A stretch of DNA of 64,000 nt from Phorcus lineatus (Eukaryota > Mollusca > Gastropoda > Trochida > Trochidae): NCBI GenBank assembly GCA_921293015.1, contig OV121097.1:27377429-27441428 (forward strand). The letters are read 5' to 3'. The position numbers and the translations under genes are program-made. This document shows, one piece after another, positions 4,735-57,394 of the stretch; the first letter of the stretch is position 1; each line of letters starts with the position of its first letter. Below the pieces are notes generated by a model. That model made no database searches. It was not told the DNA's origin and saw only the letters and a list, made by a program, of their open reading frames with translations.

Positions 4735-6033
4735 GTAAACTAATCTCAACACCTTGAAGATAAGTTTTAAATTATCCTGATGTTTTGATGAAAAGCTCTA
4801 AACATATGTTGATTCCTTGAAGAAGTGTTCTAAACTTATCCTGACGTCTTGAAGAAAATTTAGTTAAGTTCTAAACATATCTTGATACCCTGAAGAAATT
4901 ATCTAAACATATCCTGATGTCTTGAAGAAAAGTTCTGTACATACCTTTATACCTTAAAATTGTTATAATATTTCCTTGAAAAAGTTCTAAACTTATCCTG
5001 ATGTCTTGAAGAAAATTTAAGTTCTAAACATATCTTGATACCCTGAAGAAATGGTCTAAACATATCCTGATGTCTTAGAAAAAGGTTCTGAACATACTTT
5101 TATACATTAAAATTGTTATAAAATTACCTTGAAAAAGTTATAAACCTACCTTGGCTTCTTGCAGAAATGTTTTAAATATACCTCAATACATACCTTAGAA
5201 AATGTTTCTTAACATACCTACATTAACACCTCAAATATAAGTTCTAAACATATCTTGATACCATGAAGAAACGTTCCTAAGATACTTAGACATATCTAAG
5301 AAACTAAGTTCTAACATACCTCTAGACACCTCAAAGAAGATCAAGTTCTAAACATACCTATAGACACCTCAAAGAAGATGGAGTTCTAAATATACCTCTA
5401 GACACCTCACAGAAGATCAACTTCTAAACATACCTAGACACCTAAAAGAAGATTGAGTTCTAAACATACCTTGACACCTCAAAGAAGATCAAGTTCTAAA
5501 CATACCTATAGACACCTCAAAGAAGATGGAGTTCTAAATATACCTCTAGACACCTCAAAGAGGTGAGGTGAGTTGTTGTTTAACGCCGCTTTCAAGATTA
5601 TTTCACTTATATCGCGGCTGCTAGTATTATTGCAAGGAGAAAGCCCGCAACACCATTGAGGCTATGCATTGCGGTGAAACCTGCTAGCATCGGCTGGAAC
5701 TAGCGAACCATGGGTGGTACTGCGCTCACCTCAAAGAAGATCAAGTTCTAAACATACCTATAGACACCTAAATGAAGATCAAGTTCTAAACATACCTTGA
5801 CACCTCAAAGAAGATCAACTTCTAAACATACCTAGACACCTCAAAGAAGATTGAGTTCTAAACATTCCTGCATACCATGAAGAAATGTTCTAAAGATACC
5901 TAGACATATCTAAGAAAATCAAGTTCTAAACATACCTATAGACACCTCAAAGAAGATTTAGTTCTAAACATACCTAGACACCTTGAGCAGTGTAGAGTTA
6001 TCTCAAAGTTTGACTAATTGAAGAAATTTCTAA
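4735..6033 (-). repeat. Junction-derived satellite array, 36-39 bp monomers
   Basis: A tandem array whose recent part (about 5310-5990) repeats every 36-38 bp; on the plus strand the core reads aagttctaaacatacct followed by agacacctcaaagaagat. The older part (4800-5160) has a higher-order period of 153-157 bp made of four monomers (taaacttatcctg at 4831 and 4988, taaacctacc at 5141). On the minus strand each monomer carries GTCTAG followed by GTATGTTTAGAA, which is a splice-donor consensus. The array stops exactly at the donor of the candidate exon at 6040-6172, whose own junction reads GTCGAG|GTATGTTTAGAA. I infer that the array grew from that exon-intron junction. A SINE interrupts it at 5561-5726. 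Confidence 0.9.
5561..5726 (-). repeat. SINE copy 3, 5'-truncated, inside satellite
   Basis: The main SINE family in minus orientation, from its ggtgaggtgag tail to the tactgcgct block; the tRNA-like head is absent. It is flanked on both sides by CACCTCAAAG (5551-5560 and 5727-5736). This is either a 10-bp target-site duplication or simply the satellite monomer repeating, and the two cannot be told apart here. Confidence 0.9.
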
Positions 6034-55335: not shown

Positions 55336-55897
55336 TATCAACCCTAATCTTGTCTAAGTGAAGTGCCAACTTGCTAGGTGGAACTGACTTGGCTTGTATA
55401 GGCGTATATCTACACGAAGTATATAAACATCCTGTATCAAGAGTAATTTGATTACATGTTCTTGACCAGCACTACATTATAATTCTTTAGTCTTATCAAA
55501 TTGGTCAAGACACTGTCTGAAAAGAGTTTTTTTTATCACCAAAAAAAGTTTATCTATAAGATTTATTCATAGTGGTTGAAGTTAAAGAGATAAGTAATTT
55601 TGAAAAAAATCTTACAAAAAAAGGGTATAGGCTTTATCACAATTTCAGTGTACATTAAACAAAGATTATTCAATGATGATGAGTTGCAATGTATTTAACA
55701 AGGAGTAGTAATGGTTCTTGAGAGCTTCAATAATTGGTTTAGAAAACCCCTGGAAAAGATGAACTGGAACTCAAACAGTTATAATCAAAGAACCCAATTC
55801 GGACATTTTTTTTAAAAGGGGTGCTTATTTAAGCTGATTACCATAGAATTCATTCATTATGAAAAGCAAAGAAGTAAAGGATGCAAAGAATAGAATA
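55336..55897. other. No gene seen
   Basis: AT-rich; no exon is supported. Confidence 0.4.
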
Positions 55898-55925
55898 CAT
55901 ACATATATATATATACATATATATT
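55898..55925 (+). repeat. TA-rich microsatellite
   Basis: A catacatatatatatatacatatatat tract, left of the hammerhead motif. A second short (TA)n lies right of it at 56052-56066. Confidence 0.9.
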
Positions 55926-55999
55926 AAAATAGTAAAAAGAATGTTCAAACTCTATGGTAGTAAATATTAAAAAGAAGAAGATGAAGTTGAATTACATTT

Positions 56000-56043
56000 G
56001 GCAAACGTTTTCAGCAGGTACGAATTACCTGCTTCATCAGGCC
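56000..56043 (-). ncRNA. Minimal type I hammerhead ribozyme
   Basis: Read 5'-3' on the minus strand: GGC (stem I), CTGATGA (core 3-9, intact), AGCAGGT / loop AATTCGT / ACCTGCT (perfect 7-bp stem II), GAA (core 12-14, intact), the self-complementary AACGTT as minimal helix III, T at the cleavage position (giving a NUH site), and GCC closing stem I. All invariant core residues are present. A loopless palindromic helix III is typical of hammerheads in Penelope-like retroelements and retrozymes, which are thought to cleave as dimers. No reverse-transcriptase frame lies nearby, so this would be a solitary terminal repeat or a non-autonomous element. Not known from sequence alone: whether it is transcribed or active. 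Confidence 0.75.
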
Positions 56044-56071
56044 GTTTAATGCATATATATATATGATATAA

Positions 56072-56181
56072 GTTACAACATTCCGTCAAGGGTGGCATAG
56101 GGATATATTATTCCCGCGAAAAGTTTTAAGCAAGGAGTGGAATAATTTATCCCTATGTCACCCTTGACAGAATGTTATAAC
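56072..56181. mobile_element. Snapback element, ~110 bp
   Basis: The left arm starts gttacaacattccgtcaagg and the right arm ends cccttgacagaatgttataac; arms of about 42 bp pair almost perfectly around a loop of about 25 bp. It lies 28 bp from the hammerhead motif, separated by TA-rich sequence, and may belong to the same insertion. Confidence 0.85.
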
Positions 56182-57394
56182 AAATTAAAGTTACTGAATG
56201 TCTTTAAGTATTATTAAAAAGACAAACAGAAATGAACAACACCTATGACCTAATCACGTGATTTTGATTGATTGACGTGTGAAGGACGCTTTACTTATGT
56301 AGCGGGGTATAAGGGATTTATCATCCATTTGTTTTGGGTCAAGTGGACCAATGAGAAATCGGCATTCTTACATGAGGTAGAATAAGCCCATTCATAATTG
56401 TTTCTTGGCACCATACAGAATAAAAAGACAGTCGCATAAATGCAAGAGGTATTCTTGATGCAAAGCTTCTTGATGAATTGCAGATTGAACAAGAATCTAA
56501 CCATGTTTAAGTAAAACCCTCTAGATTTATCACAAAGGAAAAGTTATGAGACGGATGCTAATTCTTACGGGTTTGGGGGGGGGGGGGGGGAATGTCTATA
56601 TGGAAATGGCACTTATTGCATCATATATGATATTCAAATATTGCCAAGGATATTAACAAATTATGTTGAAAGTGAAAGGAAATCTGTAGATATGTGTGCT
56701 TCAGAGTGCATGGTAAATGGGAGCACATCAATTTAATGCCAAGCAAGAACTCAGAACCCAAAATGCAGAAAATTATATCTTCAAGTTTGTAAATATTAGT
56801 CTGAATACCGGCAAGTAAATGTTAAATGCAATTAATGAACCTACTCTTATGAATGTTAAATGTCTTTCTCATATTTTGCTCTGAACCTAAAATATGAATA
56901 AAATGAATTTTAGTCACTCTTGTCAAGTATTCATTATTTGCAATTTATGGAATGAAACAATGAAATGAAGAGAAACATGTTATCATAAAAATTACTCCCT
57001 AAAATCAAGCTCTTGTTACCAGCATATGTATACAAAGTCAGATATATTTGGTGTACATTTTATTTTCTAATAGAAAATTCGGTTCTTACAAACTTTGCAT
57101 GTATTTTCAACTCTGACAAAATGTCAACCCTAAAATTTAAGTATCATATTTCATTACCCTTGCTAATCAAAATATATATCACATCTTATTAGCATAAATC
57201 ACAAAATCCAAAAATTCCAATCTCTATCTAATCCTCATCTCACTTGTTAACCCTTTCCCATAGTCTACCACCCTCACATGGTTTATCCCAATCGACCCCC
57301 AAACTCTCAGGTGTAAATAAACCAGTCCATCTGTTGACACCTGACCTGGAGTTAATCCCCTCACCTCGCACCTCTCTCAGGTAAACTCTTAGGT
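56182..57394. other. No supported gene; poly-G at 56575-56590
   Basis: AT-rich apart from a CpG-bearing patch at 56230-56310. The 69-codon minus frame at 56295-56504 has no motif. Confidence 0.4.

Follow-up and report, generated by a model that had tools for sequence, protein, structure and literature searches.

A minimal hammerhead motif on the minus strand

The window, by which we mean the whole stretch of 64,000 nucleotides that was analysed, carries a minimal hammerhead ribozyme motif on the minus strand at 56000..56043, recognised from the sequence and by a structural scan. Read from 56043 down to 56000, it consists of the 5' strand of stem I (GGC, 56041..56043), the core CTGATGA (C3-A9, 56034..56040), the 5' strand of stem II (AGCAGGTA, 56026..56033), loop II (ATTCG, 56021..56025), the 3' strand of stem II (TACCTGCT, 56013..56020), the core GAA (G12-A14, 56010..56012), the palindrome AACGTT of helix III (56004..56009, self-duplex -3.5 kcal/mol), a T at the position of U17 (H17, 56003) and the 3' strand of stem I (GCC, 56000..56002); stem II and its loop were delimited from sequence and scan together, the remaining parts from the sequence. 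An earlier note on this DNA had claimed a complete minimal hammerhead on this strand with a 7-bp stem II and a 3-bp stem I, and direct reading of the sequence confirms it: the full set of hammerhead residues (core CUGANGA, GAA, H17 and the stems) is present, stem I has 3 bp, and stem II has 7 bp, or 8 when an extra A-T pair is counted. The note's loopless, palindromic helix III of Penelope type agrees with the sequence as well, and since AACGTT has no loop, the 6-bp helix III is possible only between two copies. Cleavage would be predicted between 56003 and 56002, the position at which the note had also placed it. In L039 and many other copies stem II reaches 9 bp, the window copy lacking one base at the border between stem and loop. 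The hammerheads at L052, L072, L100, L110, L118 and L119 carry additional partial copies of stem II (GCAGGTACGAAT or similar) ahead of the normal stem, as though copying had doubled back at the hairpin.

The structural scan, which covered core, stems and cleavage site, found this single site in the window, and 200 dinucleotide shuffles gave 0.015 matches per window under a loose rule and 0 under a strict one (stem II of at least 7 and a stem III of 3). In Rfam no family attained its cut-off over the whole window, hammerhead models were absent from 55700-56400 (701 bases) even at E<=10, and no hammerhead appeared at E<=5 in 20 other loci, though 18 of the 20 carry an intact copy in which the core, GAA, AACGTT and GCC are all present. 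The models may not cover loopless hammerhead variants. The covariance-model support for which the earlier note had looked was thus not provided by Rfam for the window, its neighbourhood or the 20 loci; other genomic copies that retain the core, for which it had also looked, were found, both in the 18 intact loci and among hundreds of family copies. We claim the hammerhead form from the core and from covariation, not from Rfam membership. Single-strand folding of the motif stretch gave z = -2.15, and in the minimum-energy fold of the window RNA stems I and II form while core bases pair with the helix III strand. In the minimum-energy folds of the window, L039 and L018 the core bases are paired in monomer and dimer alike, and the dimer of L016, from a third repeat described below, was the only predicted dimer to show the palindromic helix III. 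Since none of the dimers predicted for the window, L039 or L018 is a hammerhead, dimer folding was not counted as support.

The window copy and its host element

Blastn and own-genome matches place the motif in the 3' part (pseudo-LTR) of a Penelope-like element (PLE), of which the window holds a 5'-truncated copy at 55917..56053 on the minus strand. When a long copy of the element (L040) was compared with the window by blastn, it gave one match, 55917-56053, at 96.4% over 138 columns. At its 3' end the copy meets a TA-rich tract (55895..55916, minus strand), at the point where most copies read merge into (TA)n, and at its 5' break, at -13 from C3, it meets further TA-rich sequence (56054..56066, minus strand). 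The best tblastn match of the element protein in the window was 13 aa long, with an E of 5.8. Given one 137-bp match and no credible protein match, the window copy is an end fragment and not an independent element, a dead piece of 137 bp that carries no ORF. This bears out the earlier note's remark that no RT gene lies nearby, in that neither blastn nor tblastn found RT sequence of the hammerhead's element in the window; the small, undescribed non-autonomous element that it proposed as host gives way to the truncated end of an autonomous PLE with RT and GIY-YIG. Next to the copy, 56072-56181 forms a near-perfect, MITE-like inverted repeat whose 43-nt arms are 91% complementary and are separated by 24 nt, and 56067-56200 matches several other places in the genome, mostly at 85-88%. 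Sub-threshold Rfam matches near the motif include miRNA models on this hairpin and on TA tracts. Elsewhere in the window, 4753-5983 holds diverged minisatellite arrays with 32-38 bp units around AAGTTCTAAACATA.

The species' own genome was searched (957.8 Mb, 74 contigs), the region searches scoring the best 40 candidates each time, so that their counts are lower bounds. For a 23-base marker immediately 3' of the ribozyme the genome has 342 matches at <=1 mismatch, against 0 for the reversed control. The copies of this family (family 1) agree in their 3' part, which passes into (TA)n in most of those read, and begin at different points, and so form a nested series of 5' truncations; the longest members reach a frame that has RT motifs together with a GIY-YIG domain. 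L039 holds a 554-aa open frame containing both. The GIY-YIG domain scored 34.6 bits against a Pfam cut-off of 22.6, and RVT_1 stayed below its cut-off (21.8 and 20.2 against 29.6; E 1.7e-4), the RT assignment resting partly on what we take to be PLE motifs. A search of the genome with the RT region gave at least 47 matches, from the best 40 of 495 candidates, and the RT-EN frame had no match among PDB sequences. Beside the PLE copy at L047, positions 15-1212 (oriented) contain long open frames that resemble the RT of another retrotransposon (YADDIVLIAEN).

How the hammerhead is placed relative to the coding part could be followed at both ends of the frame. In family 1, 107 nt separate the stop codon from the hammerhead core. 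A genome search with the N-terminal region gave 10 matches, and the stretches for three of them were examined (L131, L132 and L133). L132 contains a tandem junction in which endonuclease sequence, hammerhead and 3' tail are directly followed by the start of the next ORF, whose ATG lies 132 nt after the hammerhead core; it is the one complete pseudo-LTR/ORF tandem junction seen. In L131 the pseudo-LTR is truncated inside the hammerhead and is then followed by the ORF, and in L133 the truncation lies inside the ORF. The unit assembled from several copies runs from an N-terminal part through RT and GIY-YIG to the stop, and on through 107 nt, the hammerhead and a stretch of ~115 nt that has two alternative 3' ends. 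The junctions in L132 and L131 place the hammerhead in the pseudo-LTR, which is the PLE arrangement (PMC11167929, and the accessible part of PMC3846280).

Two further hammerhead-bearing repeats

A second PLE family with a hammerhead of its own was found at L054 (5229-5765) and on the minus strand of L018 (2063 and 1399). Its endonuclease is 68% identical to that of family 1 over 96 aa, and its ribozyme, which lies 115 nt after the family 2 stop, reads ATGGC CTGAAGA GGCTC GTT GAGCT GAA AGCGCT A GCCAT. The two families have the core and the stem I GGC/GCC in common, whereas stem II, loop and palindrome have changed in sequence yet retain their pairing. The family 2 pattern has 516 genome matches, against 0 for the reversed-pattern control. 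A third repeat, at L016 (1986) and L073, carries the order ATCC CTGATGA GTCAAT ACT ATTGAC GAA ATACTAGTAT C GGAT, with a 10-nt palindromic helix III, and ends in TA-rich sequence; no coding sequence was seen at L016 and L073. Across three repeats the stems change, while the core, GAA, H17 and a helix III that is palindromic are kept. That core and pairing persist although the stems differ argues strongly for function, and it is the best evidence that we have for selection on the hammerhead fold.

5' and 3' ends of the copies

Our census of 5' ends drew on the 100 listed of the 342 marker places, all of them exact matches, of which 92 were retained as distinct copies by a filter that required a distinct context and no fewer than 90 nt of upstream sequence; because the marker matches are exact, the census leans to young copies. 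Just upstream of the ribozyme, at -20..-10 from C3, lie the 5' ends of 24 of the 92 copies, the per-base hazard of 5' breaks being 0.058 there against 0.010-0.0135 within the ribozyme. From -130 to -21, 6 of 26 copies break, or ~0.0024 per base, in a recount in which copies that reach the limit of the retrieved sequence were not scored as breaks. The outer edge of the pile-up is sharp at -20, within TCAGTT (-21..-16), and two TGACGTCA sites lie upstream of TCAGTT. TCAGTT resembles an initiator. Among the 43 hammerheads of family 2, a break falls between -34 and -9 in 18 copies; of the other 25, 10 break between -120 and -35. The rates, ~0.021 and 0.006 per base respectively, point in the same direction as in family 1, the effect being weaker and broader.

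From the copy ends and the initiator-like sequence we infer a putative transcript start near -20. The pile-up could instead mark a stop of the RT or a joining hotspot, because inverted element sequence lies no more than 150 nt from the break in 33 of the 72 copies whose 5' break is visible, and because the effect in family 2 is weaker and broader. These inverted neighbours form head-to-head pairs like those reported for rotifer Penelope in the accessible part of PMC3846280. Extension of both strands of the target, which the Anolis protein carries out in vitro (PMC11167929), could yield such pairs.

At the other end of the copies there are two 3' ends ~36 bp apart, one after CTTTTTAATATA (~+79) and one after CTATTTTAAT (~+115), both of which enter TA-rich sequence, and coverage drops at +81 from 62 to 49 aligned copies. 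Since the template in L132 continues differently past the 3' ends of the copies, reverse transcription probably starts inside the RNA, as has been demonstrated in vitro for the Anolis element (PMC11167929). The two 3' ends match the optional 30-40 bp 'tail' between the two RT start sites of that element.

Does cleavage leave a mark on the copies?

Copies would be expected to start at G39 if the template were usually cut RNA. Only 3 of the 92 copies start at +39, two of these being units of one locus (L103), and 5 of the 92 start at +37..+39. A 5'-end pile-up as a strong signal of cleavage was consequently rejected, the three copies at +39 coming from two loci. Junction patterns searched across the whole genome, each requiring two non-matching bases ahead of the junction, matched 7 times at +39, compared with 3 (+36), 4 (+38), 1 (+40) and 2 (+42). 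Of the 4 at +38, L046 represents an internal deletion, and the others may be +39 starts with a chance T. After correction for flank composition the values were 14.2 at +39 against 4.4 (+36), 8.1 (+38), 1.8 (+40) and 2.7 (+42). The excess at +39 has P = 0.0067 with +36, +40 and +42 as controls, or 0.014 with all four, and is small and post hoc, the +39 test having been chosen after L103 had been seen.

Two loci bear on the same question. In L103 (C7:13777937-13778300) two units stand in tandem, each of them starting at G39, the predicted cut site, and they are joined at CTTTTTA; L088 (C5:15741744-15742200) consists of two direct units that start at -20 and are also joined at CTTTTTA. Together with the excess at +39, these loci hint that cleavage occurs occasionally in vivo, the main template apparently being uncut RNA. 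A further reading, which we hold to be possible but rather doubtful, is that the copy ends record the 5' ends of the copied RNAs, so that -20..-10 would correspond to the transcript start, +39, as a minor class, to a fossil footprint of cleavage in vivo, and L103 and L088 to jumps of the RT between RNAs at these ends.

Alternative explanations and proposed working of the element

That the motif arose by chance in AT-rich DNA might be thought from the lack of a match to the Rfam models, but the rate of 0.015 per window in shuffles speaks against it, and hundreds of copies against 0 in reversed-pattern controls already refute it; we regard its probability as negligible. A conserved pseudo-LTR hairpin with another role (protein binding or priming), which folds in this way incidentally and does not cleave, would likewise account for the Rfam result, for core bases that are paired in the minimum-energy folds and for 5' ends that are only weakly in excess at the cut site. 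It would also fit the Anolis element, whose ribozyme is not needed for insertion in vitro, cleavage there being dispensable and requiring protein (PMC11167929). Such a hairpin leaves the retention of core, GAA, H17 and palindrome in three repeats with different stems without a reason, and has the same low chance rate against it, and we consider it unlikely.

The earlier note had described the palindrome as typical of Penelope-like elements and of retrozymes; the Penelope part stands, and the retrozyme part falls with a nested series that reaches coding sequence. An independent non-autonomous retrozyme of ~160 nt that multiplies via circular RNA and depends on PLE proteins for its mobility would agree with the many short copies that begin just 5' of the hammerhead and with the direct tandem units at L103 and L088, and animal hammerhead retrozymes of 170-400 nt do exist according to the accessible part of PMC7229834. 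The metazoan retrozymes described there resemble our repeat in their type I hammerhead and small repeats, but they are non-coding tandem repeats, whereas the unit here is the end of a coding element. Short and long copies form one nested series with common sequence and 3' ends, 5' ends are spread and not fixed at the cleavage site, and among the fetched loci direct tandem units of the ribozyme end (neighbouring cores <300 bp) occur only at L103 and L088. We give this reading very little weight, and an assignment to the retrozymes (non-coding tandem repeats of 170-400 nt) was rejected, as the copies run into the RT-EN ORF.

The best explanation, which we hold with high confidence when the working proposed here is taken as one with it, is a hammerhead in the pseudo-LTR of an autonomous PLE. 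Transcription would start in the pseudo-LTR ~19 nt upstream of the core, or would read through from an upstream unit. The ribozyme, dimeric through its palindromic helix III, would separate the units of the RNA by cleavage or cut off its leader, and most inserted copies would derive from uncut RNA. The element protein would nick TA-rich DNA, and reverse transcription would begin inside the RNA, at either of two AU-rich sites (~+79 or ~+115) that precede the ORF; short copies like that of the window would come from priming in the 5' pseudo-LTR, long ones from priming in the 3' pseudo-LTR.

Comparison with known systems

Minimal type I hammerheads that lack a normal helix III occur in the pseudo-LTRs of PLEs, with the same form and the same pseudo-LTR location as here. 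Cervera and De la Pena (2014) reportedly described these minimal type I hammerheads of Penelope-like elements, and Lunse, Weinberg and Breaker (2017) are said, going by their title, to have treated the dimeric cleavage of PLE hammerheads. The first pair of stem II is A-T here, against the G-C that we take to be usual in PLE hammerheads, and the palindrome is AACGTT. Hammerhead-bearing PLEs are already known in animals, and the element described here adds a new member.

The Poseidon element PAc of Anolis carolinensis likewise combines RT and GIY-YIG in one ORF with a hammerhead in the pseudo-LTR, an AT-rich target, an internal RT start and an optional 30-40 bp tail. The two elements differ in that PAc is cut 26 bp inside the ORF, whereas the core here lies 132 nt before the ATG, and in that the RT of PAc starts 111-118 bp into the ORF, whereas the 3' ends here lie before it, at AU-rich sequence resembling the (TA)n target (PMC11167929). 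As far as the accessible part of PMC3846280 goes, the Penelope families of the rotifer Adineta vaga have, as here, pseudo-LTRs, head-to-head inverted copies with palindromes at their joints, and 5' truncation. They are described there as low in copy number, with target duplications of 8-10 bp or none, whereas the element here has hundreds of copies, most of them at TA-rich sites.

According to the accessible part of PMC7761336, neither the in vivo activity nor the role of PLE hammerheads is known. A genome in which at least three hammerhead-bearing repeats are present in hundreds of copies makes it possible to ask statistically whether inserts begin at the ribozyme cut, and the same count of ends could be applied to any assembled animal genome. 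Most inserts here do not begin at the cut, in line with the in vitro result for Anolis (PMC11167929), and a small excess does.
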